A stretch of 64,000 nt of DNA, from contig JAHBVS010000001.1 in assembly GCA_019637445.1 (NCBI GenBank), forward strand, positions 248,001-312,000. The letters run 5' to 3'. Shown piece by piece: positions 42,998 to 60,836 of this stretch. Origin of the DNA: Gemmatimonadaceae bacterium. GTDB lineage: Bacteria > Gemmatimonadota > Gemmatimonadetes > Gemmatimonadales > Gemmatimonadaceae. Position numbers and translations under genes: made by a program. Each line of letters opens with the position of its first letter. Position 1 is the first letter of the stretch. The notes beneath the pieces were generated by a model. The model did not search any database. It had not been told where the DNA came from and saw only the letters and a list, made by a program, of their open reading frames with translations.

Positions 42998-43249
42998 TTA
43001 GAGCAGCCTCTTCGGCTCCTTCTCCACCGAATCATCATGCTTCACGGTCCGCTCGCCCCGATCCCCCTGAGGCAGGCTCCCCTGATCCGCCGGCGCGCTG
43101 ATCTCGCGCTGCACCTCATTCATGTTCTTCTTGAATTCCTTGATGCCCTTGCCGAACGATCCGGCAATCTCCGGAATGCGCTTGGCCCCGAAGAGCAGCA
43201 GTACCACGATGAGACCGATAAAGAGTTCGGTCGGTCCGAGCCCAAACAT
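42998..43249 (-). CDS. tatA: Sec-independent translocase subunit TatA/E
   Basis: 83 residues. FGLGPTELFIGLIVVLLLFG is the single membrane helix with the conserved F-G hinge, followed by the amphipathic AKRIPEIAGSFGKGIKEFKK and a polar charged tail. It forms the pore-like assembly of the twin-arginine pathway; Tat substrates predicted here include the PhoX-like and DUF1501 proteins. tatC is 13 kb away, and no tatB is seen. Confidence 0.93.
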   Translation of the reverse strand: MFGLGPTELFIGLIVVLLLFGAKRIPEIAGSFGKGIKEFKKNMNEVQREISAPADQGSLPQGDRGERTVKHDDSVEKEPKRLL

Positions 43250-43259
43250 CCCAACCTCC

Positions 43260-43541
43260 TTAGAACAGCGAACGCGCTACGAGATAGGCGGCGAGGACCC
43301 CGACCAGACTCAGCAACGAGACGTCGAGCGCGATGGGTCCAAGTCCGAACTTGATGATTACTAGATCCACCGACAAGGGGCCGAGGCTTGGCGTCACCCC
43401 CGTCGTCAAAAACTCCTTCACCGCGCCGGCCGGCAGGAAGATTCGCGCGAACTGCGTCAGGAACCCCCCCACCACGAATCCGATGGCGAGTACAATGGCG
43501 TGGTACCCCGGCCGATGCTTGGCAGACCCTTGGAGCGCCAT
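43260..43541 (-). CDS. DUF4321 membrane protein
   Basis: 93 residues from ATG 43541, one-base overlap with the polyprenyl synthase stop. Two hydrophobic stretches (AIVLAIGFVVGGFLTQFARI and LDVSLLSLVGVLAAYLVARS) with LGPLSVDLVIIKFGLGPIAL between them fit DUF4321, small integral membrane proteins of unknown role found in several phyla. Context (tatA, isoprenoid carrier) suggests an envelope role. Confidence 0.7.
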   Translation of the reverse strand: MALQGSAKHRPGYHAIVLAIGFVVGGFLTQFARIFLPAGAVKEFLTTGVTPSLGPLSVDLVIIKFGLGPIALDVSLLSLVGVLAAYLVARSLF

Positions 43542-44545
43542 CAGGCCCGCCGGTCGATCACGTACGCCAGCGCATCCGACAACGAGCGCTTGACCTCGGA
43601 GCTCGGAAGGTCGCGCAAGGCTTCCTCCGCCTCCGCCGCATAGCGCTCGCCCTGCGCGCGGGCCACGTCCAGTCCCCCGCACTCCGTCACGATGCCGACG
43701 ACCTCGGCGATCGCCGCGTCACCCGGCGTCGGGTCCGCGAACAGCGCGTCTACACGCGCGCGCTGGCTGCGCGACATCCGAGGCAGCGCCGCGATCAGCG
43801 GCAGCGTCACCTTGTGCTCCTTCAGGTCGTTGCCCGTGGGCTTCCCCGTCACGGCCTCCTGCTCCGTGTAGTCGATCAGGTCGTCCGCCACCTGGAAGGC
43901 CATCCCGAGGCGCTCGCCGAAGGTGCGCATCTGCTGGCGGAACCGTGGGGCGCCGGCCAGCGCCCCCATCTCACACGCCGCGCCCACCAACGAGGCCGTC
44001 TTGGCGCGGATCAAGCGCGTGTAGTCGTCCTCCCCGAAGCTCAGCGCGTCGAAGCTGGCCAGTTGGCGCAGTTCGCCGACGGTCATCTCGTTCGAGGCTT
44101 CGGTGAAGATGCGCAACGGCTCCAGGTCCCCGAGCCGCACGAGTTCAGCGATGGCCTTGGAGAAGAGGAAGTCGCCCATCAGCACGGCGACCTGATGACT
44201 GAAGATCGCGTTGATGGTCGGCTGTCCACGCCGCAACACCGAATGGTCCACGGAGTCGTCGTGCACGACGCTGGTGAGGTGCACCAACTCCGCCACCGCT
44301 GCCAGCGGCACCGAGCGCGGCTCCGGCTTGCCTTCGATGCCCGAGGCCAGCAACAGCAGCGTCGGACGGAACAGCTTGCCACGCATCCCTTTGAGGTGCT
44401 GGTTGGCCGCGTCGATGATCGCGAGGTCCGCCTGGATGATGCGCCACATCTCCGCCGGCACCTGCTCGAGGCGCTCGCGAATCGGCGCCTGGATCTCCAG
44501 CAGCGCCGCCGCGACGGGCATCCGAAGATGGGAATCCAACGTCAC
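43541..44545 (-). CDS. Polyprenyl diphosphate synthase
   Basis: 334 residues. First Asp-rich motif HDDSVDHSVLRRGQPT, KTASLVGAACEMGA, and second motif FQVADDLIDYT with KPTGNDLKEHKVTLPLI: a trans-long-chain prenyl synthase such as octaprenyl/heptaprenyl diphosphate synthase (IspB-like), making quinone side chains. Small residues upstream of the first motif argue for a long product. GTG start overlaps the TPR gene stop (GTGA). Confidence 0.88.
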   Translation of the reverse strand: MTLDSHLRMPVAAALLEIQAPIRERLEQVPAEMWRIIQADLAIIDAANQHLKGMRGKLFRPTLLLLASGIEGKPEPRSVPLAAVAELVHLTSVVHDDSVDHSVLRRGQPTINAIFSHQVAVLMGDFLFSKAIAELVRLGDLEPLRIFTEASNEMTVGELRQLASFDALSFGEDDYTRLIRAKTASLVGAACEMGALAGAPRFRQQMRTFGERLGMAFQVADDLIDYTEQEAVTGKPTGNDLKEHKVTLPLIAALPRMSRSQRARVDALFADPTPGDAAIAEVVGIVTECGGLDVARAQGERYAAEAEEALRDLPSSEVKRSLSDALAYVIDRRA

Positions 44546-47400
44546 GAGATCTGTTGCTCCACCGCGTTCAGGCGCTCGCCTACGTCACGGAACTGGATGT
44601 CCACCGCAAACACGCGCTCATAGTACTTCTTGGCGTCGGCAAACTTCTGTTGCTCCTCGGCAATCGCGCCGAGCAGGTAGAGCACCCCAACCAGCGACTC
44701 GTCGCCCACGCCCTTTTCCGCCAGCGCGCGTAGCAGGATCGTCGCGGCCACGGGCAGCTGTCCCTTCTCCACGAAGCAATGGCCCAGCGACTCATAGGTG
44801 CGCACGCGATGCGCACTGCCGCGCAAGGCCTTCTGGAACTCCGCGATGGCCTCGTCCAGCAGCCCCATCTCCTTGTACGCGACGCCGAGGTCGTAGTGGG
44901 CCTCGTGGTCCTCGTCCTCGACGTTGGCCGACACGCCCTCCTTGAATTTCTTGAGCATGTCCTCGAAGTCGGCCTGCTCGTCGCCGGTGGGCTCCTTTTC
45001 CTCGACGACCATCCGGGTGCTCTTCGGCGCGTCGTCCTCACGCAGCCAGTCTCCGAGCGAGATATAGTCGTCGCCGCCCGCGCCATCGCTCTCCGCACTG
45101 GGCGTGGCCGCCGACGCCGGTGTGGGTGCCGACGACGGAGTTGGTGCCGAGGGGTGCTCGTCCTTCGTGCCGGAGGCCCGCGCCGAGACGGTCGTCGAGG
45201 CGCGCGGTGTCGCCTCCTCCTCCGGGATGGCTTCGATGGCCGCCTGCGCCCGCAGGTCGTCGGGGTTGATGTCCAGCACTCGCTGGTAGACCGAGCGCGC
45301 CTTTTGCGCCTGGCCGTCCGCCAGCAGTGCGTCGGCCAACTCCACGTAGGCCTCGGCGAGGCGTTCGCGGTGATTCGCGCGGAATGCGTACTCCACGCGC
45401 ATCTTGTGGTAGCGAATGGACGTCGGCTCGAGCCGCACGATCTCCTCGGCAATCGCGCCGGCGCTGTCGAGATCGCCCTCCTGCTCGTAACCGGCCATCG
45501 CGATCGCCAACTCCTCGATCGCATCGGCGCGCGGCCCCTGCTCGAGCAGCAGCTCCGCGTACAGTCGGCGCACCCCCCAGTTCTCCGGCTCCTGCACGAC
45601 GCGCTCGCGCAGTTCCACCAAGCTCACCGCGGTGCTGGGCTCCTCGACCGAGGGCGCCTCGTCCTCAGGCGCGTCGCCGTCGGTGTGTTCTTCCGCGCTC
45701 GGCGGCTCCGCCGAGAACGGCTCGACGGACGACTGGTCGAGCAGTTCGTACTCACCACCGACGCCGTCCGGGGTATCGGAGAAGAACGACGTCGAGGGCA
45801 CCGACGGTTCGACCTCGAGCTGGCCACTCCCTGGCTCGCCCATCTCCGATTCGGACTCGATCAGCGGGATCGAGTTATCGGCGGCGGCCTGCGCCGGCGC
45901 TGAGGGCTGCTCCGTGTCCGCGTCGGCCTCGCGCTCAGCATCGACCGCCTCATCACCGGAGGGCCCTGCGTCAGTTGACGCAGCCTCCGCCGGTTCAGCG
46001 CTGGCGTTGGCCTCGCTCTCGGCCTCTGCCGCTTCCTCGGCCTCGGCGAGATCCTCCGCCAAGACCTGCGCGGAGAGCCGCTCGGCCATCGCCCGCGCCG
46101 CCAAGGTCGCGCGCGACGGAACGGTCGGCGGCTCCTCGACCGGCTCCGTGTCCTCGTCGCCCTCGTCATCCTGATCGGCGTCCGCGGCGCCCACCTCGGG
46201 CTCGGCGACCGGAACCGGCGACTCGGCCGTCGCCTGGATCTCAATCAGTTCGATCTCGTCCGCGGCGTCGGCCGACTCAGCGTGTGCCGTCGGCTCGACC
46301 TCCAGAACGGGGATCTCCACATCATCAGCGACTTCTCCGATGGAGGTTGCCTCAACCTCGAGCGACTCCACCTCGATTTCCTCGACTGACACATCCTCGC
46401 CAAGGCTCGTCGCCTGGAGATCCGAGCGCGTGGTGCGCGGCGCGGGGATATCCTCTTCGCTGACCGTGGGCTCGATCTCCAGCACCGGCGCTTCGTCAGC
46501 CGGCGGCGCAGCAGCCGCTGGAGGCTCCACGACGGGCGGCTCCGCGGCGGGCGGTTCCGGCTCGGGCGGCTCGACTGCCGGCTGCGGCGCGGCTGGTGTC
46601 GGCGTGGCGCGAGCGGCCGGCGGAGGCGCGAGCGTCTCCGGCGTCAGCAACTGCAGGCCCTCGACCGCCTTGGTGACGCGCTGGAGTTCCTGCTTTGACT
46701 GCTTGCGGGGCTTCGGCTCGTCGACATCGAGGAAGACCAAGCCGCCGCCACCGCCCCCCGACGAGGCATCGCCTGCCTTGGGCTCCACCGTCGGGTCAAT
46801 CTCCTTCATCTTCGAGGCAAACTTCTCGGACTCGTCCTCGAGGCCGTCCGCCGTCGCCTGCGTGAACCCAAGCTGCAACTGCTCGATCGCCTCATCCTTG
46901 CGGTCGGCCTTGACCAACTGGTCTGCGAGCATCAAGCGGACGTCGTGTTGGTCCGGCACCAACTCGGCGAATTCCTTCAGGGCCTTGAAGGCATCATTGA
47001 GATTCCCGGCCTTCTGCTGGCGACTCGCGTACTCCAGGAAGTTCTGGCGTGCGTCGCCCTTGAAGCCCTTCTCCGCGTGGATCTTCCCGAGCTTGTAGTA
47101 GACCAGGGTGCGCCCGGGCGACTGCCGGAGAATCTTGTTGCAGAGGGCGATTGCCGGGTTGAAGAAGCCACCGTCCGTGTAGTGGTCGACCGCCCGCTCC
47201 CAAATGGAGACGGCCTCCGGCAAGTTGCCGGACTTCTGCATCATGTCCCCCACGCGGTTGTACAGGGGGATATCGATGGGGTCTTCGTCGCCCGCCTCGT
47301 ACGCCTCGATAATCTCGCGATAGACGTCGAGCGCCTTGTCGAGTTGCTTCTTGGCCTCGAGGTCGGCCGCCTTCTTCTTGAGCTTGACGATATCGGCCAT
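44542..47400 (-). CDS. Large TPR protein with acidic low-complexity linker (2)
   Basis: 952 residues from ATG 47400. N-terminal TPRs (1-185: DLEAKKQLDKALDVYREIIE, LPEAVSIWERAVDHY, NAIALCNK-type helices), an acidic Glu/Pro/Ala-rich stretch (about 250-640, many E-V-E and A-E-S runs), central TPRs (LRERVVQEPENWGVRRLYAE, KARSVYQRVLDINPDD) and C-terminal TPRs (AHYDLGVAYKEMGLLDEAIA). Cytoplasmic by lack of a signal. Coupled to polyprenyl synthase by GTGA. Probably a protein-interaction scaffold; TPR-type proteins with similar linkers occur in motility and envelope systems, but I cannot assign a partner. Confidence 0.72.
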   Translation of the reverse strand: MADIVKLKKKAADLEAKKQLDKALDVYREIIEAYEAGDEDPIDIPLYNRVGDMMQKSGNLPEAVSIWERAVDHYTDGGFFNPAIALCNKILRQSPGRTLVYYKLGKIHAEKGFKGDARQNFLEYASRQQKAGNLNDAFKALKEFAELVPDQHDVRLMLADQLVKADRKDEAIEQLQLGFTQATADGLEDESEKFASKMKEIDPTVEPKAGDASSGGGGGGLVFLDVDEPKPRKQSKQELQRVTKAVEGLQLLTPETLAPPPAARATPTPAAPQPAVEPPEPEPPAAEPPVVEPPAAAAPPADEAPVLEIEPTVSEEDIPAPRTTRSDLQATSLGEDVSVEEIEVESLEVEATSIGEVADDVEIPVLEVEPTAHAESADAADEIELIEIQATAESPVPVAEPEVGAADADQDDEGDEDTEPVEEPPTVPSRATLAARAMAERLSAQVLAEDLAEAEEAAEAESEANASAEPAEAASTDAGPSGDEAVDAEREADADTEQPSAPAQAAADNSIPLIESESEMGEPGSGQLEVEPSVPSTSFFSDTPDGVGGEYELLDQSSVEPFSAEPPSAEEHTDGDAPEDEAPSVEEPSTAVSLVELRERVVQEPENWGVRRLYAELLLEQGPRADAIEELAIAMAGYEQEGDLDSAGAIAEEIVRLEPTSIRYHKMRVEYAFRANHRERLAEAYVELADALLADGQAQKARSVYQRVLDINPDDLRAQAAIEAIPEEEATPRASTTVSARASGTKDEHPSAPTPSSAPTPASAATPSAESDGAGGDDYISLGDWLREDDAPKSTRMVVEEKEPTGDEQADFEDMLKKFKEGVSANVEDEDHEAHYDLGVAYKEMGLLDEAIAEFQKALRGSAHRVRTYESLGHCFVEKGQLPVAATILLRALAEKGVGDESLVGVLYLLGAIAEEQQKFADAKKYYERVFAVDIQFRDVGERLNAVEQQIS

Positions 47401-47494
47401 TCGGGAAGACAGCGGGGAGACGGGGGCGGCCACCATAAAGCGCCAACGGCGCAAGTCCGTAAAACTACGCGCCAAACCCGTGCGGTGACAAGCG

Positions 47495-48775
47495 TTAGGC
47501 CCTGTCGGCGAGCCCCACGGCCGTCTTGCCGCCAACCCAGGTCGCGACACAGTGCCTATCCCCGTACCAATACGGGATTTCGCGATGGTCGCGGACGTCG
47601 AACAAGGCGAGGTCGGCGCAGTACCCGGGAGCGATTTGACCCAACTCCCCGGCCAGCCCAAGCGCGGCGGCCCCATTCACCGTCGCGGCCACGAAGGCCT
47701 CGGCCACACTCAGCCGCAACTGGCTCACGCCCAGCGTGAGCACGAGCGGCAGGTTGCCGGAGGGGCTGGTGCCCGGATTGAAATCCGAGGCGAGCGCCAC
47801 GGCGCAACCTGCGTCCAGCAGCGCCCGCGCAGGCGCCTGCTTCGGCCTGCCGAGAAAGAGCATCGTGCCCGGCAGCAGAGTCGCCACCGTGTCGGCGGCC
47901 GCCAGAGCCTTGATGCCGTCGGGCGAGATCGCCGCCAAGTGGTCAGCCGAGGTCGCGCCGAGCTCGGCGGCGAGTTCTGCGGCCGCCGCGTGTTCGAGCT
48001 CATCTGCGTGCAGCTTGAGCAGCAGCCCATGTCCGCGGGCCGCGGTCAGCAGGCGCCGCGCTTCATCGGCCGTGTAGACCCCGGGCTCGCAGAACACATC
48101 GCAGAAGCGCGCCAGACCCTTGCGCGCCACGGCCGGCAGCATCTCGTTGATGACCAGGCCCAAATAGTCCTCGCGACTGCGCGGCGCCTCGCGGTACTCC
48201 AACGGGATCTCGTGTGCGCCAAGGAACGTGGGCACGAGGCGGATCGGCAGTTCCTGTTGCAGGCGCCGGATCGCACGCAGCGTGGTGAGCTCGGAGTCGA
48301 GCGAGAGACCGTAGCCCGACTTCACCTCGACGGTCGTGGTGCCGTGCGCCGCGAGGCGCATCAACCGCGGTCGCGCGAGGGCGACGAGTTCGTCCTCGCT
48401 CCGCTGGCGCAGGTCGCGCACCGAGCTGTGGATCCCGCCGCCGCGCTTGGCGATCTCGAGATAGCCCACACCCGCCGCGCGCAGCTCCTGTTCCTCGTAG
48501 CGCGGCCGTCCAAAGATCGCGTGCGTGTGCGAGTCCACGAATCCCGGCGCCAGCACGCCGCCGCTGCAGTCCACCTCGTGTGCACCACGATGCGTTGCAC
48601 GAAGCTCTGCATCCGCCGCCACGTCGAGAACCTTGCCACCGGCATCGACCGCGACCCCGACCCCCTTTCGCACCACGGCGTCCCGCATCTCGGGGCCACG
48701 CCGCGCGCGTCCGGGGCCCGCGCAGGTCAGGACCTCGGCGGCGTTCACAAACAGCTGCGTTGCGGAAACACTCAC
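47495..48775 (-). CDS. hutI: Imidazolonepropionase
   Basis: 426 residues. GFVDSHTHAIFGRPRYEEQE (metal His pair), HGTTTVEVKSGYGL, PTFLGAHEIP, KLHADELEH, TSADHLAAIS and ASDFNPGTSPSGNLPLVL are intact and diagnostic. Hydrolyses imidazolonepropionate to N-formimino-glutamate, the third step of histidine breakdown. GTG start, GTGA overlap with the radical SAM gene. No hutG or hutF is in the window, so how formiminoglutamate is processed is not visible. Confidence 0.96.
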   Translation of the reverse strand: MSVSATQLFVNAAEVLTCAGPGRARRGPEMRDAVVRKGVGVAVDAGGKVLDVAADAELRATHRGAHEVDCSGGVLAPGFVDSHTHAIFGRPRYEEQELRAAGVGYLEIAKRGGGIHSSVRDLRQRSEDELVALARPRLMRLAAHGTTTVEVKSGYGLSLDSELTTLRAIRRLQQELPIRLVPTFLGAHEIPLEYREAPRSREDYLGLVINEMLPAVARKGLARFCDVFCEPGVYTADEARRLLTAARGHGLLLKLHADELEHAAAAELAAELGATSADHLAAISPDGIKALAAADTVATLLPGTMLFLGRPKQAPARALLDAGCAVALASDFNPGTSPSGNLPLVLTLGVSQLRLSVAEAFVAATVNGAAALGLAGELGQIAPGYCADLALFDVRDHREIPYWYGDRHCVATWVGGKTAVGLADRA

Positions 48776-49746
48776 GGGGATGCCACCAGGTCTTGAAAGC
48801 GATTCAACCGCAGCGGCGCCTGCGCCTCGCCGCGACAGGCGTAGAAGCAGCGATCACAGTCGATCGGTGCATAGCCGTCGTACGTGGACCAGTGCCCGTC
48901 CGCGGGAAAGTCCGGACAGCGCCGCACCTGCCCAAACGGGTTGATGTGGATCGTGTCCTGCCCCGAGCGGCAGGGCTCATTGAGCTCGCCGCGGAGATAG
49001 TGCGGGATCTGCCCGATGTAGTGGTCCGAATTCGAGATCGTGCCGCGTCGCCCGCGCTTGAAGGCCAGCAGCTCGCGCACCAGCTCGTCCACGCGCGCCA
49101 ATTGCTCGGGACGCACCAGGTGCTCGCGATTGCCGTTCTTGAAGTCCGTGTACACGCTGAGGTTCACACCCACACGCATCCGCTCGGCCTCGCGCACCAG
49201 CGGCATCACCTCGTCGAGGTTGTCGTCCTTGATGACCGTGTTGAAGCGCACGGTCATTCCTTCGGCGCGCATCGCCGGGGCGACGGCGAGGATCTTCTTG
49301 GTGAGGCCGGGAATTCCGCGCGCCGCATCGTGGCGCCCATCGAGATAGTCCAACGAGATGTTGAACTGCCCGATGCCAGCCGCCCACAGCGAGCGCGCGC
49401 GATCGACCGAAAGCATCGCCCCGTGCGTGATGATCGTCGTGTACTTGGTGCGAATCGCGCGGTCCACGGCGGAGACCAGATCCTCGAGGTCGCTGCGCAG
49501 CAGCGGCTCGCCGCCGGTCCAGGTGATGAGCATCGGATTGAAATGCCGCGCCGCATCCACGAACGAGCGCAACTCCTGCGCCTTCTCCTCCGCCGGCGTC
49601 TTCCAGTAGTCGCAGAAGCCGCAGCGCGCGTTGCAGCGCATCGTGACCTCGAAGTGCACGAGCACCGGCCGACGCTGCAGGCGGAGCTTCGCGTACTTGT
49701 AGCTGAAGGGAACGAGGTCCCAGGGCTTGAAGCGGGTGCTCAGCAC
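48772..49746 (-). CDS. Radical SAM protein with SPASM/twitch-like C-terminus, in the hut operon
   Basis: 324 residues from GTG 49746 (seven bases after the hutU stop). C38-x3-C42-x2-C45 (CNARCGFC) is the [4Fe-4S]/SAM site; ITWTGGEPLLR is the G-G-E motif. The C-terminus has C259-x12-G-x4-C277 and C297-x2-C300-x3-C304, a partial SPASM/twitch arrangement able to bind an extra cluster. Residues before C38 are basic. Position between hutU and hutI suggests a task linked to histidine or a peptide, but no precursor gene is evident. Function unknown. Confidence 0.82.
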   Translation of the reverse strand: MLSTRFKPWDLVPFSYKYAKLRLQRRPVLVHFEVTMRCNARCGFCDYWKTPAEEKAQELRSFVDAARHFNPMLITWTGGEPLLRSDLEDLVSAVDRAIRTKYTTIITHGAMLSVDRARSLWAAGIGQFNISLDYLDGRHDAARGIPGLTKKILAVAPAMRAEGMTVRFNTVIKDDNLDEVMPLVREAERMRVGVNLSVYTDFKNGNREHLVRPEQLARVDELVRELLAFKRGRRGTISNSDHYIGQIPHYLRGELNEPCRSGQDTIHINPFGQVRRCPDFPADGHWSTYDGYAPIDCDRCFYACRGEAQAPLRLNRFQDLVASP

Positions 49747-49753
49747 GCCGCGC

Positions 49754-51424
49754 TCAGGCCGTGCCCAGCATCGGCAGCTTGAGGCCCGTACGCCTCGCCG
49801 TCTCGATGGCGATGTCGTAGCCCGCATCCGCGTGACGTGCCACGCCCATCCCGGGATCGTTGGTCAGCACCCGCTCGAGTCGCTGACGCATCTCGTCCGT
49901 GCCGTCCGCGACGATCACCTGCCCCGCGTGCAGCGAATTGCCGATGCCCACACCGCCGCCGTGGTGGAAGCTCACCCAGCTCGCACCGCCCGCCACGTTC
50001 ACGAGGGCGTTGAGGATGGCCCAATCGGCGACGGCATCGGTGCCATCCTTCATCCCCTCGGTCTCGCGGAAGGGCGAGGCCACGGAGCCCGTGTCGAGGT
50101 GGTCGCGCCCGATCGCGATTGGCGCCTTCAACTCGCCCGTGGCCACGAGGTCATTGAGCGCGACGCCGAACTTCGCGCGATCACCCTGCCCCAGCCAGCA
50201 GATTCGCGCGGGCAGCCCCTGGAAGTGGATGCGTTCGCGCGCCATCGTGATCCAGCGCTTGAGGTGTTCGTCGTGGGGGAACATCGACAGCACCAGTTCA
50301 TCCGTCCGCGCGATGTCGGCCGGGTCGCCGGAGAGGGCGGCCCACCGGAACGGGCCCTTGCCTTCGCAAAACAGCGGCCGGATGTACGCCGGCACGAAGC
50401 CGGGGATCTCGAACGCGTCCTTCAAGCCAGCGTCAAAGGCCACCGTGCGGATGTTGTTGCCGTAGTCGAAGGCGATCGCGCCCGCCTGCTGCATCGCACG
50501 CATAGCGCGCACGTGCGCCACTGCGCTGGCCGTCGAGCGCTTCACATACTCGTTCGGATCGCTCTCACGCAGTGCCGCCGCGGCCTCCAACGACATGCCG
50601 TGCGGCACATAGCCGTTCAGCATGTCGTGCGCCGAGGTCTGGTCGGTGACCACGTCCGGTGTGATGCCCCGCTCCACCATCAGCGGCAGCACCTCCGCCG
50701 CATTGCCGACGAGGCCAACGGAGAGCCCGCGCTTGGCCTGTTGCGCCTCGCGGATCCAAGTCATCGCCTCGTCGAGATCCTCCGTCATCCGGTCGCAGTA
50801 GCCCGTGTCGAGCCGCTTCTGGATGCGCGTGGGATCCACGTCCACGCCAAGGATGGCAGCGTCGTTCATCGTCGCTGCCAAAGGCTGTGCGCCACCCATG
50901 CCGCCGAGCCCGGCGGTGAGCACGAAGCGGCCGGCGAGCGATCCGCCGAAGTGCTTGCGCGCCACGGCGCCAAAGGTCTCATAGGTGCCCTGCACAATGC
51001 CCTGCGAGCCAATGTAGATCCACGAGCCCGCCGTCATCTGGCCGTACATCATCAGGCCCTGGCGCTCGAGTTCGCGAAAGTGCTCCCAGGTGGCGAAGCG
51101 GCCGACGAGGTTGGAGTTCGCGATCAACACGCGCGGCGCGTGCACGCTGGTGCGGAACACCGCCACCGGCTTGCCGCTCTGCACGAGCAGCGTCTCGTCG
51201 TGCTCCAGCACGCGCAGGCTGGCCACGATGGCGTCGAAGGCCTCCCAGCTGCGCGCTGCCTTGCCGGTGCCGCCGTAGACCACGAGGTCGTCAGGGCGCT
51301 CGGCGACCTCGGGGTCGAGGTTGTTCATCAGCATGCGCAGGGCGGCCTCCTGCTGCCAACCCTTGCAGGAGATGGTCGTGCCGCGCGGCGCGCGAACGGT
51401 GCGGGGGGATGCGGTCGTGGCCAT
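49754..51424 (-). CDS. hutU: Urocanate hydratase
   Basis: 556 residues, the usual length. Tightly bound NAD+ region [67 protein letters not shown] (active Cys), and [20 protein letters not shown] are all conserved. Converts urocanate to imidazolonepropionate. 110 bases downstream of hutH in the operon direction. Confidence 0.97.
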
Positions 51425-51501
51425 CCGTGCAATCTACTCGCCCGATGGCTGACAGGCGGTGCGGTCGCGGCGGCTGGCGCTCGTCCGCGTGCACGCGCTG
51501 C

Positions 51502-51533
51502 GCGGCTGCGCGGGTGCGCGGGTGCGCGGGTGC
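51502..51533. repeat. Tandem octamer repeat between hutU and hutH
   Basis: Four tandem GCGGGTGC units (the first with one mismatch, GCGGCTGC), ending two bases before the hutH stop codon. It gives a purine-poor hairpin-free run; possible slippage site. Confidence 0.7.
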
Positions 51534-51534
51534 G

Positions 51535-53037
51535 CTAGGCGAACTCGCCCTGCGCGATCCCCTCGGCCAGCGTCTCGATATCCGGCCCCAGCACGCGATC
51601 CGCCTCGAGCTTCGCCACACGCGCGCGCACGGCGGCGTGCGCCCGCTCCACACCCGCGCCGGACTTGAGCGGACGCCGCGACTCCAGGCCCTGCGCCGCG
51701 CACATCAGCTCCACGGCGAGCACGTGCCGCAGGTTGTGCAGGATGCGTCGCAGTTTGATGGCCGCACCCATCGCCATCGGCACGACGTCTTCCTTGCTGC
51801 CGTCGGTGGGGATCGTATCCACGCTCGCCGGATGCGCGAGCACCTTGCACTCGCTCGTCATCGCCGCAGCGGTCACCTGCGCCATCATGAATCCGGAACT
51901 CACGCCGGCCGTGGCCGTGAGGAACGGCGGCAGGCCCTCGTTGAGGTCGGGATGCACCAGGCGATCCGAGCGCCGCTCGCTCATCACGGCGAGGTTGGTC
52001 ATCGCGATGGCAAGGACATCCAGCGCCATCGCGGCAGCCTGACCGTGGAAGTTGCCGCCCGAAAGCATCGTGCCGTCGTCGAAGACCAGCGGGTTGTCGG
52101 TCGCCGCATTCAGCTCCGGCGTCACCAACGATTCGGCGAACTCCAGCGCCTGCAGCACCGGGCCGTGCACCTGCGGCATGCAGCGAAGCGCGTAGGCGTC
52201 CTGCACGCGCGGATCGTTGCTGCGATGCGACTCGCGGATCTCGCTGTTGGCGAGCAGTTCGAGAAAGCGCGCCGCCGAAGCCTGCTGGCCCGGCTGGCCA
52301 CGTGCGGCGTGGATCCGCGCGTCGAACGCGGTCGGGGTCCCGAGCAGGGCCTCGAGCGTCATCGCGCCCGCGACGTGCGCGGCATCCCAACAGCGCCGCG
52401 CCTCGACCAGCGCCAGCGACGCCACCGCCGTGTGCGCCTGCGTGCCGTTGATCAGCGCCAAGCCTTCCTTCGGCCCCAGGGTCACTGGCGACAGACCGTG
52501 CGCCTTGAGCACCTCCGCCGCCACACCACTACCCTTGGCGTGCTGCAGCCGCCCTTCCCCGATCAACGACAGGGCGAGATGCGCCAGCGGTGCGAGGTCC
52601 CCACTGGCTCCGACCGAGCCCTGCTCCGGCACCTCCGGCCACAAGCCGGCGTTGAGCATCGCACACAGCAGTTCGGCCAGCTCCGGTCGTGCACCACTGA
52701 AGCCCTTGGCCAGGACATTCGCGCGCAGCAGCATCATCGCGCGCACCTCGCGCTCGGGCAGCCGCGGCCCCACACCCGCCGCGTGCGAACGCACGAGGTT
52801 CACCTGCAGCTGCACCAGCTGGTCCGCCGGAATGGCCACGTCTGAGAGTTTGCCGAATCCCGTGGTCACGCCGTAGACGGCGGCACCCTCGGCCGCGAGG
52901 CGCTCGACAATCTGACGCGTGCCGCCCATCCGCGCGCGCGCGGACTCGGACAGCCGCACCGTCCGCCGACCATCCGCCACATCGGCCACGTCGGCGATGC
53001 GCAGGCCCTGCCCCGTCAGTTCAAGAGTGTCCGCCAC
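51535..53037 (-). CDS. hutH: Histidine ammonia-lyase
   Basis: 500 residues. YGVTTGFGKLSDVAIP (substrate loop), SVGASGDLAPLAHLAL (A-S-G triad that cyclises to MIO, about residues 143-145), and QDAYALRCMPQVHG-type segments show a catalytically complete enzyme. First step: histidine to urocanate plus ammonia. GTG start nine bases after the lptD stop, so hut genes are likely read from an envelope-gene transcript. Confidence 0.97.
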   Translation of the reverse strand: MADTLELTGQGLRIADVADVADGRRTVRLSESARARMGGTRQIVERLAAEGAAVYGVTTGFGKLSDVAIPADQLVQLQVNLVRSHAAGVGPRLPEREVRAMMLLRANVLAKGFSGARPELAELLCAMLNAGLWPEVPEQGSVGASGDLAPLAHLALSLIGEGRLQHAKGSGVAAEVLKAHGLSPVTLGPKEGLALINGTQAHTAVASLALVEARRCWDAAHVAGAMTLEALLGTPTAFDARIHAARGQPGQQASAARFLELLANSEIRESHRSNDPRVQDAYALRCMPQVHGPVLQALEFAESLVTPELNAATDNPLVFDDGTMLSGGNFHGQAAAMALDVLAIAMTNLAVMSERRSDRLVHPDLNEGLPPFLTATAGVSSGFMMAQVTAAAMTSECKVLAHPASVDTIPTDGSKEDVVPMAMGAAIKLRRILHNLRHVLAVELMCAAQGLESRRPLKSGAGVERAHAAVRARVAKLEADRVLGPDIETLAEGIAQGEFA

Positions 53038-53046
53038 GTACGATGC

Positions 53047-56000
53047 TCAGCGATTGGGAAGCGAGGTGGGCTGCCGGTAGGTCTGGCGATCGTAGTCGAG
53101 CTTGATCTCCGGCTGCGCCTTCAGCGAGATGAAGAAGGTAAACGCGAAGTTGCCGTTCGGCGCCTGCGTGAATCCGAAGATCGCACGCCAGTCGTGCAGG
53201 TCGCGCTGCAGCGTCACCACCTGCGCCGCGAACTGGCTGCGCTCCACGTCGTACGTCGTGTTCCACGACGCCGCCCACTTGGGCGTGAGGTTGAAGCTCG
53301 TGCGCATTCCCACCGATGTCGTGGCGGGCACGCGATAGAACGTGCCGCCGCCAGTGCCTTGGCTCTGGTCAAGATCCGTCGGACGTTGCCGCTCCGCCTG
53401 CGCCAGGCAGAACTCGTAGGTCGGCAGCCCAATCAGATCAGCGCACTCGGCGCGGGGATCGAAGGTGACCACGCGTCCACCGACGGGCGGGCGCTGCCGC
53501 TGCTGGCTCACGGAAAAGTTCGCCTGGAAGCCCTGCCCCGTCTGGATCTGCTGCACCGCGCCGCGCCCGCGCGTTCCCGTGATGCCGCCACGGCCCATCT
53601 GGTTCGGATTCAGGCCCGAGACCATTCCGCCACCCATGGCGTCGGGGCCGCTCTGATCGTTCGTGGACGCGACGGCACCCGGCGTCAGATCCGCCCCAAA
53701 CAGCTTGGCCACGCCGCGCACGATCGCCGAGTTGCGGTTGAGGTTGAAGCCGAAGCGCACCGCCTCGCGATACGGCTTGAAGACGGCCGTATCGCTGAGC
53801 ACGCTGCCCTGGAACAGCGAGTAGTCCACGCCGAGGTCGAAGCCTGGCAACAGGTCGGAGCGGAAGGTGTAGCCGGCGCGGTCGGTGGCGAAGCCCGTAC
53901 GTCCGGTCTGTCGCTGCAGCTCGAAGTCGTAGACCAGGGGCGTGAACTGCAGCGAGGCGAGGCGAATCTTCTGCGACGCCTTCGTGGTGTCCGCGTTGCG
54001 CATCTTCGCTTCGAAATTCGTGTTGAACCCAAGCGTGAGTCGGTTCTGCGCCAGTCCGCCCAAGTAGCCCACGGTGGACTTGCCCAGCGCCTCGAGGTAC
54101 TCCGGGTTCACCTCCGCCTCCGGCGAGTAGCTCCAGGAAAGGGTCGGCGAGATCGCGTGGCGAATCCGCTCGACCGGCCCGATGCCGGGCAACAGCCGGT
54201 AGAGCGTCGGGGATACGCCGGCGCCGTAGCTGACGCGCTTGGACTGCGTGACCCAGGCCCCGTTGGTGCGCTCCGAGCGCACGAAGGTGCCCGAGGGGTC
54301 CACGTTCGAGAGGGCGACCAGCGGCGCGAAGTTCCAGGTGCCCTTCAGAAACTGCGGCAGGCCGACACTCAGGTTGTAGTCCGCGGTGGACTTGAACGTG
54401 CGCGCATAGACGCGATCAATCGACCGCGTGGGATCCAGCGGATCGGGCACGGTCTTGATCTCGGGGAACTCGTTGGCTTGGTCGTTGAGCCGGAAATCCG
54501 CCTGTACCTGGAAGTCCCAGACCTTGAACGGCAGGCCCATCTGCAGGGTCGTGGTGCGCGAGTCGCGGCGCAGCCGCGTCGAGTCGAGACCAGCCGGCGT
54601 GTTCTGATACGCCCAGGTGAAGTCACCGACCGCATCCAGCTTCAACCGTTCGGAGGTGGAAAAGGCGAGCGACGGCGTGACCACGAAGTTCTCGCCAAGT
54701 GTCAGCGGCTTCGAGGCGACGTTCACCGAGGGGAAGTCGCGATCGATCTGGTCGCGCCCCAGGTATTGCCGCTGCGTCCCACCGACGTTGATGGCGAAGG
54801 GTCCCTGCTGCCGGGACAGGTTGGCCTGCGACGAGATGGTCGCCAGCGCCATCATCGGATTGATGGTCGTCTGCCGGCCCACCTGCGTGTTGGTCATGTA
54901 GTTCATGTTCGTCGTGAAGCGCGTCCTCGACGAGAACTCCTGCTGGTGCGACCAACTCAGGGCGAGGTTGCGCGAGCCCGACGAGATCGAGTTGCGCGAG
55001 ACCGCGATCCCGCCGCTGAGGAAGCGATCGAGCCAGCGATAGCGCAGCTCTCCATTCAACCGTACCCAGCCCGGATCCTGCGCGGTGGCGCGGGCCGCCG
55101 AGCGCCAATCCATCGAGACCTGCGCGTCCACGTAGTCGCTGAGCGCGAAGTAGTAGCCGAGGTTCTCGATCGTGCGGCGGTAGGTCGGCGAGTTGCGCAC
55201 GACTTCCGAGAAGCCCGCCCGCGGCGTGAGCAGGCCGGAGCGCCGTCCCGTGCGGATGTCCTGGAAGATGAACGGCAACCAGGCCACCGGCACGTCGCCG
55301 ATGTAGAGGATCGCCGGCCGCGCCACGATCACGCTGTTGCTGACCCGCTTCAGTTCCTTGGCGAGAAAGTGGTAGTGCGGGACCGAGTCCAGACAGCTGG
55401 TGATCAAGCCGTCACGCCCGTAGACCGTGCTGCGGTCGCTGGCGGAGTCGGAGGCGAAGGCCGCGCGATGCGCCTGCACCTTCCAGTCCTCGCCCGAGTT
55501 GGCCGTCGTCGAGAAGTCCTGGGTGCGCCCCTCGCGGTTCACGAGGTCGTAGGTCATCTCCTTGAGCCCGACAATGTCATCGCCGCGCTCGGGGTCGCGC
55601 ATGGTGATGGTGTCGCCCCGCGCGGCAATCATCTTGGTGCTGTCGTTGTACTGGATGGTTTTCGCCACCAGCATCGTCGAGTCGCGCTTGACGGCGGCGC
55701 GCGCGCTATCGCCGACCAGCGACATCGTGCGCGTGGCCGCCTCGAATCCCACGGTGTCGCCCTGGTAGCGCACCACGCCGTAGCCGGCACGTTGCAGCAA
55801 CGCGGTCATCACGGAGTCGTCGGGGATCCAATTCACCAGCGGGGCACGCTCGCGGACGCCGCTGCTGTCGCGGCCCTGCGCGCGCTTGCTGGTGTCGGCC
55901 TGCTGCCGCGGCGTTGGTGGGGGCGGCGTCACGACGCGCTCCGAGGGCGGCGGCCGGCGCGGCTGCCCCGGTTGCTGCGCTCCCAACAGCGCCGGCCCGA

Positions 56001-56103
56001 GCAGCGACAACGCAAGGACGACAGTCAGCGTCTGCGTGAGTGTAGCCGCCCACCCCGCATCCAGCGCGCCCGCCGCGGCGGGGCGCCACGGCAGGTTCCT
56101 CAC
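53047..56103 (-). CDS. lptD: LptD-like LPS assembly outer-membrane protein
   Basis: 1018 residues from GTG 56103, overlapping the tatC stop (GTGA). Signal peptide (VLALSLLGPALLGAQQ), a Pro/Gln-rich stretch, an LptA-type (OstA) beta-jellyroll (about 90-235: VGFEAATRTMSLVGDSARAA, YNDSTKMIAARGDTITM), a transition with HYHFLAKELKRVSNSVIVAR and YIGDVPVAWLPFIFQD, then a long barrel ending in aromatic strands. Cysteines near residues 230 and 905-915 could pair, but not in the E. coli register. Inserts LPS in the outer leaflet together with an LptE-like partner not seen here. Confidence 0.85.
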   Translation of the reverse strand: MRNLPWRPAAAGALDAGWAATLTQTLTVVLALSLLGPALLGAQQPGQPRRPPPSERVVTPPPPTPRQQADTSKRAQGRDSSGVRERAPLVNWIPDDSVMTALLQRAGYGVVRYQGDTVGFEAATRTMSLVGDSARAAVKRDSTMLVAKTIQYNDSTKMIAARGDTITMRDPERGDDIVGLKEMTYDLVNREGRTQDFSTTANSGEDWKVQAHRAAFASDSASDRSTVYGRDGLITSCLDSVPHYHFLAKELKRVSNSVIVARPAILYIGDVPVAWLPFIFQDIRTGRRSGLLTPRAGFSEVVRNSPTYRRTIENLGYYFALSDYVDAQVSMDWRSAARATAQDPGWVRLNGELRYRWLDRFLSGGIAVSRNSISSGSRNLALSWSHQQEFSSRTRFTTNMNYMTNTQVGRQTTINPMMALATISSQANLSRQQGPFAINVGGTQRQYLGRDQIDRDFPSVNVASKPLTLGENFVVTPSLAFSTSERLKLDAVGDFTWAYQNTPAGLDSTRLRRDSRTTTLQMGLPFKVWDFQVQADFRLNDQANEFPEIKTVPDPLDPTRSIDRVYARTFKSTADYNLSVGLPQFLKGTWNFAPLVALSNVDPSGTFVRSERTNGAWVTQSKRVSYGAGVSPTLYRLLPGIGPVERIRHAISPTLSWSYSPEAEVNPEYLEALGKSTVGYLGGLAQNRLTLGFNTNFEAKMRNADTTKASQKIRLASLQFTPLVYDFELQRQTGRTGFATDRAGYTFRSDLLPGFDLGVDYSLFQGSVLSDTAVFKPYREAVRFGFNLNRNSAIVRGVAKLFGADLTPGAVASTNDQSGPDAMGGGMVSGLNPNQMGRGGITGTRGRGAVQQIQTGQGFQANFSVSQQRQRPPVGGRVVTFDPRAECADLIGLPTYEFCLAQAERQRPTDLDQSQGTGGGTFYRVPATTSVGMRTSFNLTPKWAASWNTTYDVERSQFAAQVVTLQRDLHDWRAIFGFTQAPNGNFAFTFFISLKAQPEIKLDYDRQTYRQPTSLPNR

Positions 56104-56882
56104 GCCGTCTCTCCGCCGATGCTGTTCTGCGCCAACCGCTCGCGCTTCTTCCGCGAGCGCTCCACGAACCAACTCAGCACGATGCTGACCTCGTACAGCC
56201 CATACAGCGGCACGCCCAGCATCAGCGTCACGATGATGAGGTCGCCCGGCGTGATGATGGCGCCCAGCAGGAAGCTCCCCACCAAGGCGTGCCGCCGAAA
56301 CTTCGCCAGCAGACGCGGATTCACGAGCCCGAGCGCGCTCAGCGCGAGGATCACGATCGGCAGCTGGAACGACCCACCAAAGGCCAGGCACAGCGTCACG
56401 GCAAAGCCGAAGTAGTCCGCCGCCGAGATCATCTGCTCCAACGTGTTGCTCTGGAACGAGAGCAACACCCCGAACATCGCCGGCAGCACGAACTGCACGC
56501 AGAGATACACGCCTGCGACGAAGAGCAGCGTGGAGCCCATCAGGACCGGCACCACGACCTTTTTCTCGTGCGGATGCAGCGCCGGCGAGAGGAAGGCCCA
56601 CACGTGGTACACGATCACCGGCGACGCCGCGACGAGGCCGAGCCCGAACGACACCTTGAGCACGATGGCCATCGGGTCCATCGGATGCGTGTAGACCAGC
56701 TTGCCGCTCGGCAGAAAGGGCAGGATCGGCTGCGCCAACAGGCCAATCACATCGTACTGCCAGACGATGGCGAAGGCCGTGAGCATGCACAGCACCAGCG
56801 CGCCAAGCGCCCAGAAGAGCCGCACGCGCAGCTCTTCCAGGTGGTCCAGAAATGGCATCTCGGCCGGTGTCTTCTTGCTCAT
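56100..56882 (-). CDS. tatC: Sec-independent translocase subunit TatC
   Basis: 260 residues, six helices. FLDHLEELRVRLFWAL (the conserved H-L-x-E-L-R-x-R), VIVYHVWAFLSPALHPHEKK, QFVLPAMFGVLLSF and AIITPGDLIIVTLMLGVPLYGLYEVSI match the family. It recognises twin-arginine signals. Coupled to lptD rather than to tatA/tatB. Confidence 0.96.
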   Translation of the reverse strand: MSKKTPAEMPFLDHLEELRVRLFWALGALVLCMLTAFAIVWQYDVIGLLAQPILPFLPSGKLVYTHPMDPMAIVLKVSFGLGLVAASPVIVYHVWAFLSPALHPHEKKVVVPVLMGSTLLFVAGVYLCVQFVLPAMFGVLLSFQSNTLEQMISAADYFGFAVTLCLAFGGSFQLPIVILALSALGLVNPRLLAKFRRHALVGSFLLGAIITPGDLIIVTLMLGVPLYGLYEVSIVLSWFVERSRKKRERLAQNSIGGETA

Positions 56883-56917
56883 CCGTCGGCTATGGGGCGG
56901 CCGGGCCGCCCTCCCTC

Positions 56918-57742
56918 CTACGGTCTACGGGACCGGAGGAACTCCTGCGCGAGGAGCGCGGCATCGGACCGCGGATACTGGTCCACGATCTGGCGATACA
57001 ACGACTCGGCCTGGTCATTCTGCCCGATGCTCCGGTACGCCGTCGCGCGCTTGTAGAGGGCGTTGGGCGCCTGATCCGACCGCGGATACCGCTGCACCAC
57101 CAACGCGTATACCGAGTCCGCAGCGACGCCGTTCCCCTCGTCCGCCCAGGTCTCGGCCACGCCATAGAGCGCGGGAGGGGCAAGGTCGGAGGTCGGATGC
57201 GCCGTCAGGAGCTGCAGGAAGGCCGCGCGCGCCGACGAACTCGAACCGCGTCGCAGCTGGTCCTGCCCCATCTGGTACAGTTGGGCCGGTCCCGGAGGCG
57301 CGCTCGGACGCGTGGCCATCGTGGAGTCGGGCCGCGCACCGCGCGTCGTATCCGGCGGCGGCGGCGCCGCCAACTCGGCCGCCCGCGCCTCGAGCTCCGA
57401 GCGCAGATCCATGATGCGCCGCTGGCTCTGGCCGGTGAGCTCCTGAATCATGATCAACTGCTGCCGCACCGAGCGCATTTCCTCGCCGAGGTCACCGCGC
57501 AGGCGGTTCAGCTGGACATTGGCCTGGTGCGCGGTGTCCGCGAGCTCGGCCAACAGCGCCGTCACGCGGGCGAGGTCCTTCTCCATCTGCGCGCGAAGGG
57601 CGGAATCGCCGGCCGCGCGCTCGGCCCGGATGACCTGCAGGTCCTGCTGGAGGATCCGGACATCATTGCGGGTCGCGAAGCACGCGCCGGCCGTCAGGAT
57701 GACGACCGGCGCGAGCCACGGACGGAAAGTGCGACCGATCAC
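56918..57742 (-). CDS. cpoB: CpoB/YbgF-like Tol-Pal associated protein
   Basis: 274 residues. Lipobox-like LTAGAC (Cys21) follows a short signal, unlike periplasmic E. coli CpoB. Coiled coil (about 26-125: ILQQDLQVIRAERAAGDSAL, LSELADTAHQANVQLNRLRG-type heptads), then three TPR-like repeats (AAFLQLLTAHPTSDLAPPAL, DSVYALVVQRYPRSDQAPNA, ESLYRQIVDQYPRSD) of the outer-membrane assembly type. It couples peptidoglycan synthesis with Tol constriction in model species. GTGA overlap with pal. Confidence 0.88.
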   Translation of the reverse strand: MIGRTFRPWLAPVVILTAGACFATRNDVRILQQDLQVIRAERAAGDSALRAQMEKDLARVTALLAELADTAHQANVQLNRLRGDLGEEMRSVRQQLIMIQELTGQSQRRIMDLRSELEARAAELAAPPPPDTTRGARPDSTMATRPSAPPGPAQLYQMGQDQLRRGSSSSARAAFLQLLTAHPTSDLAPPALYGVAETWADEGNGVAADSVYALVVQRYPRSDQAPNALYKRATAYRSIGQNDQAESLYRQIVDQYPRSDAALLAQEFLRSRRP

Positions 57743-58362
57743 GGGAGGCGAAGCGTCTCCCCACCCACGATGATCTCGAACTCGTCACGACGATTGCGCG
57801 ACCAGTTGTCCTCACCCATGCCCATCATCGCCGGGCGATCCTCGCCGAACGAGACGGTCTCGATGCGGTCGGCGGCGATGCCCTGGTCCACCAGGTACTG
57901 CTTGGCGGCGGCGGCGCGACGCTGGCCGAGGGCCATGTTGTAGGCGTCGGACCCGCGGTCGTCGGTGTGGCCGGCGATGCGGATGCGGACGTTCATGTTC
58001 GCGCGGAGCAGCGGCAGCTTGGCGTCCAGCACGGCACGCGCATCCGTGCTCAGCGACGACTGGTCGTAGCCGAAGTAGATCACCGTCGCGAAAGCGGTGC
58101 GGGCGGCGGCGATGGCGGCAGCGCGCTCACGGGCGGCACGCTCCTCGGCCTCGCGGCGGGCACGCTCAGCGGCCTCACGCTCGGCGCGGGCACGGGCCTC
58201 GGCCTCGGCGCGGGCGCGCTCCTCGGCGGCACGACGCGCGGCGTCGATGGAATCCTGGTTGATGACCGGCGCCGGCGGCGGCGGCGGCTCAGGCTGGCGG
58301 CAAGCGGCCGACACAACGGCCGCAACGGCCAGGGCGGCGACTACGGAGATACGAGCGTTCAT
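57739..58362 (-). CDS. pal: Peptidoglycan-associated lipoprotein Pal
   Basis: 207 residues, longer than E. coli Pal (173). Lipobox VSAAC (Cys21), a Pro patch, a 50-residue Glu/Arg/Ala helix (about 42-90, AEERARAEAEARARAERE...), then the OmpA-like domain with VIYFGYDQSSLSTDA, IRIAGHTDDRGSDAYN and ALGQRRAAAAKQYL, which binds diaminopimelate peptidoglycan. The charged helix is unusual for Pal and looks like a TolA arm. Anchors the outer membrane to the wall. Confidence 0.95.
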   Translation of the reverse strand: MNARISVVAALAVAAVVSAACRQPEPPPPPAPVINQDSIDAARRAAEERARAEAEARARAEREAAERARREAEERAARERAAAIAAARTAFATVIYFGYDQSSLSTDARAVLDAKLPLLRANMNVRIRIAGHTDDRGSDAYNMALGQRRAAAAKQYLVDQGIAADRIETVSFGEDRPAMMGMGEDNWSRNRRDEFEIIVGGETLRLP

Positions 58363-58422
58363 GGGTGTCCTCGAAAGGAGTGCTGGTGAGGGAGGGTATC
58401 CTGCTAAGGACGAGCGGAGGGA

Positions 58423-59715
58423 CTACTTCGGCACGGCCAGACGCGGTGACCACGAACCCTGGCGCGCCATCGCGCCGAAGGTCAGCTGCCGCATCCGACC
58501 GGACTCGGTGTCGAGGACCCACAACTGCCGGCTCCCCGAGCGATTGGACGTGAAGACCAGATGTCGTGCATCGGGTGCCCACGTCGGTTGTTCATTGATG
58601 CCTTCGATCGTGTGCTGCTTCACGCTCCGGTCGCGCAGGTTGATCGTCGCGACCTGGAAGCGTCCTTCAATCTGCGTCTGGAATGCCACGTAGCGTCCAT
58701 CGGGTGCCCACGACGGATCCGAGCGGTACGACTGGTCGCCGAAGCCCGTCGTGGTCAGCCACTGCGGGTTCGCCCCGTCAGCATCAGTAATATATATCTC
58801 GGGACGGCCGAGGCGACCACTTGCGAAGGCGATACGCCGCCCATCGGGTGAGAAACTCGGCGAGATGTTGTCGGTGCCCCGACCCACGGTCACACGGCGG
58901 GGCCCATCACCGCCCTGCACCTGCACGGCCCAGAGATCGGTGCCGTCCGTGCCGTGCGAGAAGACGAGGCTGCGCCCGTCCGGCGAGAACGCGGGCGTCG
59001 CGTTCATGCCATCGCTGAACGACACGCGGCGCGCCGTGTTGGCCTCGAGGTCACGCAGCAGGATGTGCGAGCCATCGTCGGCCTGCTCCATGTAGGCAAT
59101 CATCCGCCCGCTGGGATGCCAGGCCGGGTAGTTGGCATTGCCCACGCCAGGGACGGGCCGCGCATTGGCGCCATCCGAGTCGACCATCCACAACGTGCCC
59201 GCGCGGTTGAACAACACACGCGTGGCCGCGACGCCCGGTACACCGGTCACCCAGCGTTCGACCTCGTCGCTCACGGCGTGTAGCGCCAGCCGCCACTCGG
59301 CGGACAGCGGCGCGCCGTCGAGTACGAAATCCTTCTGCTGCATCACCCGTGCGGCGCCCACTTCGTGCACGGTGACCGACAGGACACCGCCCATCTTCTC
59401 CGACAGCTCGAGGACGGCCGCCGCTCCCAGTTGCGCATACAGCGGATAGTTCAGCGCACCGGGCTGTCTCACGCCGGAGTCGGGCACGATCACCGAGATG
59501 CGGTCGCCGAAGTCGAGGTCGCGGGAGATGATGGTGCGGATCGAGTCCGCGAGCCCACCGGTCATCGGCAGGACGTAGAGCCCCGGGCGCGTCCCGGCAG
59601 CGTAGGTCAGCCCAATGCGCACACCTTCTTGCGCGTCGGTGACGATGGGTGCGAGCGCGCCGGCAGCGAGCACGACGGCCGTAACAAGATGTCGGGCGGC
59701 GAGGCGATGGGTCAT
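58423..59715 (-). CDS. tolB: Tol-Pal system beta-propeller TolB
   Basis: 430 residues. Signal peptide (VVLAAGALAPIVTDAQ), a D1 domain (RTIISRDLDFGDRISVIVP), then a six-bladed propeller with repeated S-P-D-G turns (AFSPDGRSLVFSHGTDG, SFSPDGRRIAFASGRLG, SWAPDGRYVAFQTQ). ATGA overlap with tolA. Periplasmic partner of Pal and TolA. Confidence 0.93.
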   Translation of the reverse strand: MTHRLAARHLVTAVVLAAGALAPIVTDAQEGVRIGLTYAAGTRPGLYVLPMTGGLADSIRTIISRDLDFGDRISVIVPDSGVRQPGALNYPLYAQLGAAAVLELSEKMGGVLSVTVHEVGAARVMQQKDFVLDGAPLSAEWRLALHAVSDEVERWVTGVPGVAATRVLFNRAGTLWMVDSDGANARPVPGVGNANYPAWHPSGRMIAYMEQADDGSHILLRDLEANTARRVSFSDGMNATPAFSPDGRSLVFSHGTDGTDLWAVQVQGGDGPRRVTVGRGTDNISPSFSPDGRRIAFASGRLGRPEIYITDADGANPQWLTTTGFGDQSYRSDPSWAPDGRYVAFQTQIEGRFQVATINLRDRSVKQHTIEGINEQPTWAPDARHLVFTSNRSGSRQLWVLDTESGRMRQLTFGAMARQGSWSPRLAVPK

Positions 59716-60422
59716 CGCAGGCGCGCCGGGTCGAACGCGAAGGTCACGGGCAGGATGTCGTCGGAGAAACCCGTCGGCAACGGGCCAAATGCGCGCGCGG
59801 CGGCCTCCACGGCCCCCTGCGCCTCGAGATCAAATGCAAAATTGCCGCTTGGCGTGATGAACCGGAAACCGGTCATCGAACCGTCGCGGCGGATGAAGAA
59901 GAACACCTCGGCCTTGAGCGCACCCGGGTTGCGTGGGTTGAAGTTCTGCGCCACCTGGCGGACGATGTTCTGTAAGTACCCAGGGAACGGGAATTCGATG
60001 CCTTCCGTGCGCACCGTCGCCACGTCAGTCCCGGTGCTCCCCATCTCGCCGCCACCGGCCGTCGGTGCCTTCGTGGCGTCCACGCGCTCTGTGCTCTTCT
60101 GCGAGATGTTCGGCGTGGCGCGGGTGGTCGGTCGCGCGGCACGCGTCGGCGGCTTGATGGGCGCAGCCTTTACCGGATCCGGCGCCTCTGCCTTCGGCGG
60201 CGCCTTCGCGGTGGGCTCGGCGGCGGGTGGCGTCTCTCGTACCACACCCGACTGACGAGGGCCCGGAGGGGCCGCGACCAGATCCACGCGATACATCGGA
60301 GGCAGCGCCGGCGCCGGCGCAGCCTTGTAGATCACGAACGGCACGGCGACCGCTGCGTGCAGCAGCAGCGACAGGGCAAAGGCACCGCCGAGCCCCGAAC
60401 GCGGGCGCACGGCGGCACTCAC
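59712..60422 (-). CDS. tolA: TolA/TonB-like energy-transducing protein
   Basis: 236 residues. One membrane helix (LGGAFALSLLLHAAVAVPFV, with the His near the end as in TonB/TolA), a Pro/Ala/Lys-rich stretch (about 40-130) and a TolA/TonB C-terminal domain (FPFPGYLQNIVRQVAQNFNP, AEVFFFIRRDGSMTGFRF). It is short and has no long helical arm. GTGA coupled to tolR. By position it is TolA, by size closer to TonB. Confidence 0.85.
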   Translation of the reverse strand: MSAAVRPRSGLGGAFALSLLLHAAVAVPFVIYKAAPAPALPPMYRVDLVAAPPGPRQSGVVRETPPAAEPTAKAPPKAEAPDPVKAAPIKPPTRAARPTTRATPNISQKSTERVDATKAPTAGGGEMGSTGTDVATVRTEGIEFPFPGYLQNIVRQVAQNFNPRNPGALKAEVFFFIRRDGSMTGFRFITPSGNFAFDLEAQGAVEAAARAFGPLPTGFSDDILPVTFAFDPARLR

Positions 60423-60835
60423 CGTGCGACGTCCTCCGGCTCGGCGACGAGACCGATATTCCCCACGCCCGCCCCGCGCATGATCGCCAGCACCTCCACG
60501 ACGCGTCCGTACGGGACGCCTTGGTCCGCCCGGAGATAGACACCCTCGCGCCCGGCCTGGTTGGCCAGCGTCCGGAACGTCCCGCGGAATTCGCTGAGGG
60601 AAAGCTGCACGTCGTCGGCGAAGATGCGCCCGTCGCGGGTCACCGAGACCACCAGCGCGCTACGTGCGTTCAGCGGACGCGCCTCGGCCCGCGGCAGCGA
60701 CACGTCCACCCCGCCCTGCATCATCGGCGCCGTGATCATGAAGATGATCATCAGCAGCATCATCACGTCGATCAGCGAGACGACGTTGATCTCTGCCTGC
60801 AGGGGCGTGCGCTCCCCGCGCCCGCGGCGACGCAT
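60419..60835 (-). CDS. tolR: TolR/ExbD biopolymer transport protein
   Basis: 138 residues. Membrane helix with the essential Asp: INVVSLIDVMMLLMIIFMIT, then MMQGGVDVSLPRAEARP and a C-terminal periplasmic domain (VYLRADQGVPYGRVVEVLAI). One-base spacer after tolQ stop. Converts proton-motive force into motion of TolA. Confidence 0.95.
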   Translation of the reverse strand: MRRRGRGERTPLQAEINVVSLIDVMMLLMIIFMITAPMMQGGVDVSLPRAEARPLNARSALVVSVTRDGRIFADDVQLSLSEFRGTFRTLANQAGREGVYLRADQGVPYGRVVEVLAIMRGAGVGNIGLVAEPEDVAR

Positions 60836-60836
60836 G

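Follow-up and report, generated by a model that had tools for sequence, protein, structure and literature searches.

Organization of the locus

The window (the whole 64,000-nucleotide stretch of Gemmatimonadaceae DNA that was analyzed) was found to carry on its minus strand a run of genes in the order tolQ-tolR-tolA-tolB-pal-cpoB-tatC-lptD-hutH-hutU-rSAM-hutI-TPR-polyprenyl synthase-DUF4321-tatA, with mostly small gaps between them. The names given to tol, pal, cpoB and tatA rest on sequence and position. The enzymes of histidine utilization, namely histidine ammonia-lyase (hutH, 51535-53037; TIGR01225, 632.8 bits, cut-off 539.15), urocanate hydratase (hutU, 49754-51424; TIGR01228, 953.6 bits, cut-off 375) and imidazolonepropionase (hutI, 47495-48775; TIGR01224, 405.9 bits, cut-off 298.15), all scored above the NCBIfam equivalog cut-offs. 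They had been described in the first-pass annotation as a self-sufficient set; the enzyme identities hold, but the set is not free-standing and lies within a larger envelope cluster on the same strand. On its upstream side are lptD (53047-56106, start approximate), which stands immediately upstream of rSAM where hut is absent, and tatC (56103-56891; 48% in tblastn with a TatC-like protein from locus L070). On the downstream side are the gene for a TPR protein (44542-47400), which follows rSAM where hutI is absent, a polyprenyl diphosphate synthase gene (pps, 43541-44545) and, at the cluster end, a tatA-like gene in conserved position (42998-43249). All of these genes lie on the minus strand, and the tol-to-tatA cluster recurs in the relatives inspected. 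The hut genes are thus built into a tol-pal-tatC-lptD-...-TPR-polyprenyl synthase-tatA cluster (42998-61547) without obvious functional reason, an arrangement common to three families of the order.

Between hutU and hutI lies rSAM (48772-49746, minus strand), encoding a radical SAM enzyme, probably of twitch type, of 324 amino acids with a GTG start, which is supported because homologues start at the same point (MLSxRF...). A 7-base gap separates it from hutU, whose stop is at 49754, and a GTGA overlap of 4 bases joins it to hutI. The motif CNARCGFCDYWK contains a CX3CX2C site (C38-x3-C42-x2-C45; 49612-49635, minus strand), a GGEP sequence is also present, and the putative auxiliary-cluster cysteines are found near the C-terminus as C259-x12-G272-x4-C277 and C297-x2-C300-x3-C304-RGE (48835-48972, minus strand). 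CX3CX2C is the ligand site of the SAM-binding [4Fe-4S] cluster in radical SAM enzymes. The reading frame, the gap, the overlap and the cysteine motifs, as first reported for this gene, are all exact in the sequence. In an alignment of 28 homologues with identity down to 30%, all eight cysteines (8/8) were invariant, five of them being C-terminal. Among distinct Gemmatimonadaceae rSAM sequences, CX3CX2C and C-x12-G-x4-C were both present in 102 of 102 and CX2CX3CRGE in 101 of 102.

Enzyme class and predicted fold

The protein belongs to the radical SAM superfamily, scoring 65.6 bits against PF04055 (Radical_SAM, cut-off 29.5), which was the sole Pfam match of the window copy. It fell well under the cut-off of every NCBIfam radical SAM equivalog (MoaA, PqqE, NirJ, HpnH, BlsE and mycofactocin among them), and no NCBIfam subfamily claims it. 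The top NCBIfam score was to the PTO1314 family radical SAM protein (TIGR03961) at 88.3 bits, far from the cut-off of 306 bits for membership of a family that is likewise uncharacterized.

The AlphaFold model (pLDDT 88, pTM 0.88) aligns with twitch and SPASM enzymes across most of its length, and the putative auxiliary-cluster cysteines are conserved. Among solved structures it matched BlsE (Z 23.5), SkfB (21.3), SuiB (20.1), MoaA (19.9), PqqE (19.1) and BtrN (15.6), and Foldseek agreed on the same group. A twitch/SPASM radical SAM fold is therefore predicted with confidence. The full SPASM domain has seven cysteines, two more than are found here, and the SPASM family was absent among the Pfam matches of 28 rSAM members at E ≤ 1, in which the protein differs from PqqE and other SPASM proteins; its C259-x12-G-x4-C277 part, however, aligns with the C-x(n)-G-x4-C of PqqE. 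The five auxiliary cysteines would thus appear a better fit to a twitch-type domain, and the earlier label "SPASM-like", while supported as regards the radical SAM class and the auxiliary-cluster domain, is slightly too strong.

The top solved match, BlsE (cytosylglucuronate decarboxylase, PDB 7vob; matched over 278 residues at rmsd 3.0 and 20% identity), is of comparable length and likewise carries CX3CX2C and GGEP in its radical SAM core. However, rSAM scored just 41.6 bits against TIGR04466 (cut-off 400) and has no nucleoside antibiotic cluster at its locus. Like BtrN and MoaA it has a radical SAM core, followed here by a putative short C-terminal auxiliary-cluster (twitch) domain; twitch domains hold one auxiliary [4Fe-4S] cluster, a likely electron acceptor in BtrN and a substrate ligand in MoaA (PMC9012708). 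Unlike these two it conserves five auxiliary cysteines and has the CxxCxxxCRGE end, and it is far under the moaA cut-off; C304, within CRGE, is the fifth and thus one beyond the four cysteine ligands of the BtrN auxiliary cluster (PMC9012708). A literature search found no publication on this enzyme, which represents an uncharacterized and unclassified radical SAM subfamily, probably of twitch type.

Distribution and gene order

The family set comprised 108 Gemmatimonadaceae genomes at least 90% complete, of which 104 carry rSAM, practically always as a single copy. True absence was rejected for three genomes (G028, G102 and G110), in which the contig ends at the expected place, beside hutU or hutI. 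The only clean absence is in G027, a complete genome (100%) with the gene order lptD-hutH-hutU-hutI-TPR (L113). Extra copies in G057 were rejected as paralogs, as they belong to two more occurrences of the cluster, each on a short contig (L239 and L240), probably from contaminating strains. The Gemmatimonadaceae cluster was also seen on contigs labeled Vicinamibacterales and Kuenenia; these and the three copies in G057 (L054, L069, L239 and L240 for the two cases together) are probably misbinned metagenome contigs.

Recurrence of the order hutU-rSAM-hutI, which had been proposed as a check, was found widely: the genome scan gave 72 loci of Gemmatimonadaceae type, and in 67 of them rSAM lies beside hut genes, a count based on tblastn, ORF calling having skipped some neighbors. 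This is the commonest order in the family, and its recurrence is that of an inherited gene order within one family. The sister families have the same envelope cluster with hutU followed directly by hutI and no rSAM (L217, L218, L220, L221, L224 and L227), and therefore the hut genes are older at this site and rSAM was inserted later. No homologue of the rSAM group was detected in the sampled genomes of the order's two other families, where weaker matches in a few genomes belong to another twitch group, one with a CxxCYxSxR end.

An extra gene of ~310-410 amino acids lies between lptD and hutH/hutU in sister families (L217, L218, L221, L222, L224, L227 and L228). The two copies tested (L222 and L224) had no NCBIfam match, and in some loci this ORF may conceal hutH, the hutH ORF possibly having been passed over in ORF calling.

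Distant homologues that share the CxxCxxxCRGE end have no hut genes alongside; they come from Phycisphaerae, the L108 lineage and family f8. Among the Phycisphaerae the neighbors vary. Two genomes of the L108 lineage (L197 and L199) pair the homologue with a GMC oxidoreductase and an unassigned small protein, and in family f8 it adjoins a large HMPTM zinc-ribbon radical SAM protein among UDP-sugar dehydrogenase and FtsK genes (L160:5174-8647).

Separation of rSAM from the hut genes

Ten genomes (G019, G037, G045, G046, G051, G117, G118, G121, G122 and G123) have rSAM without adjacent hutU-hutI, and in all ten it is still found within the envelope cluster, with lptD (or hutH) on one side and the TPR gene on the other. 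In G037 hutH is retained beside rSAM while hutU and hutI are elsewhere. Some Gemmatimonadaceae have relocated the old hut set or swapped it for a different operon (L121-L127): hutU of the moved orthologous set is 78-79% identical to that of the window (L122, L125 and L127), and hutU of the different operon is 61-64% identical (L121, L123, L124 and L126). A maximum-likelihood tree built from 107 rSAM proteins required six changes between the hut-flanked and the separated state; in about six separate Gemmatimonadaceae lineages hut departed the site with rSAM remaining. The dN/dS of rSAM was 0.046-0.098 in five hut-less pairs. In the eight pairs used for comparison, seven wholly hut-flanked and one (L112/L093) mixed, it was 0.063-0.16. 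Purifying selection on rSAM is unchanged with or without hut alongside.

Separation in the other direction is seen in G027, whose hutU nests among the rSAM-bearing rows of a quick tree (SH-aLRT 94); this genome lost rSAM and retained hutHUI. Obligate linkage or co-retention of rSAM with hut was not observed across these genomes, the ten separated genomes departing from it one way and G027 and the sister families the other. A tight and widely recurring gene order (a 7-base gap and a stop-start overlap, in dozens of genomes) can mean inherited position and not shared function, and the genomes in which either hut or rSAM is gone provide a natural control set for telling the two apart.

Proposed role and alternatives

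On the evidence above it is highly probable that rSAM encodes a twitch-type (truncated-SPASM) enzyme whose gene entered the hutU-hutI junction in the Gemmatimonadaceae ancestor and was kept for a function apart from histidine degradation. An older tol-pal-tatC-lptD-hut-TPR-pps-tatA cluster would have received the gene, which would have been retained ever since for this other job. Judging from the fold, the [4Fe-4S] cluster at C38/C42/C45 would cleave SAM, the resulting 5'-deoxyadenosyl radical would abstract a hydrogen from the substrate, and an auxiliary [4Fe-4S] cluster, with ligands from among C259, C277, C297, C300 and C304, may accept an electron or bind substrate. By comparison with BtrN, BlsE and MoaA, a small metabolite would most likely be oxidized, decarboxylated or rearranged. 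As the subfamily is conserved and nearly universal in one bacterial family, deletion of the gene could reveal a family-specific pathway.

A possible, though rather unlikely, substrate is to be sought among the fixed neighbors (lptD, TPR, polyprenyl synthase, Tat and Tol-Pal), with rSAM modifying an LPS sugar, a lipid, a polyprenyl compound or an envelope protein. Such a role is compatible with the preferred explanation and would supply the substrate that it lacks. The gene lies inside the lptD...TPR-pps-tatA cluster in every Gemmatimonadaceae genome inspected, and several hut-less genomes have it right after lptD, with zero or few bases between. Distant radical SAM relatives (group b) often adjoin VTT/DedA-like membrane proteins, or else LolA together with an ABC ATPase; the family f8 homologue is near UDP-sugar dehydrogenases and, in L160, also the zinc-ribbon HMPTM protein; and BlsE uses a glucuronate nucleoside as its substrate (PMC3715490). 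However, the whole cluster is very stable, and a fixed position is therefore expected of any resident gene. In the sister families and in G027 the envelope cluster is complete but has no rSAM, so that the argument which weakens a link to hut weakens this one too, and the Phycisphaerae homologues have no stable envelope neighbor. The more specific proposal, that this ancestrally gained, family-wide enzyme carries out a new kind of radical modification on a sugar, lipid or isoprenoid of the outer membrane made by the lptD-TPR-polyprenyl synthase cluster, is considered improbable.

Modification of a small peptide by rSAM as a RiPP maturase is suggested by SkfB, SuiB and PqqE being among the top fold matches, but it is very doubtful, as the 324-residue protein has just a short N-terminal helix ahead of the core with no space for a PqqD/RRE-like region, and its scores stayed below cut-off for all peptide-maturase models of NCBIfam. 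A precursor gene adjoining rSAM was excluded by lack of space in the hut-less loci L115 and L120, where the gap upstream is as little as 3 bases and the one downstream 52-63 bases.

Also very improbable is a part in histidine utilization, in which a Hut protein or one of histidine, urocanate and imidazolonepropionate would be the substrate of rSAM: the tightly coupled hutU-rSAM-hutI order seen in most of the family favors such a role, and the presence of hutU somewhere in rSAM-bearing genomes of the family set makes co-occurrence compatible with one at a distance, but rSAM and hut have separated in both directions, homologues in other phyla have no hut neighbors, and rSAM is kept at its old site in genomes with a different hut operon (that of L123 carrying HutC, HutF and HutG). 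The suggestion that rSAM modifies histidine, urocanate or a hut-linked peptide is thus disfavored, and the reading offered beside it, a stable neighbor with another role, is the better one given the repeated separation. The reported lack of hutG and hutF is true of the window, but the source genome encodes elsewhere an FtcD fused to methenyl-THF cyclohydrolase; this fusion can serve the last histidine step, and therefore no gap is left in the pathway for rSAM to fill, by which its candidacy as a substitute for that step was ruled out. An arginase-family match proved to be an arginase.

The second twitch radical SAM group, with the CxxCYxSxR end, was found beside a VTT/DedA-like membrane protein in many loci (within L162-L179), and in other loci it adjoins LolA and an ABC ATPase. 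It is possible that this group and its membrane-protein neighbor form a conserved pair in Gemmatimonadota.
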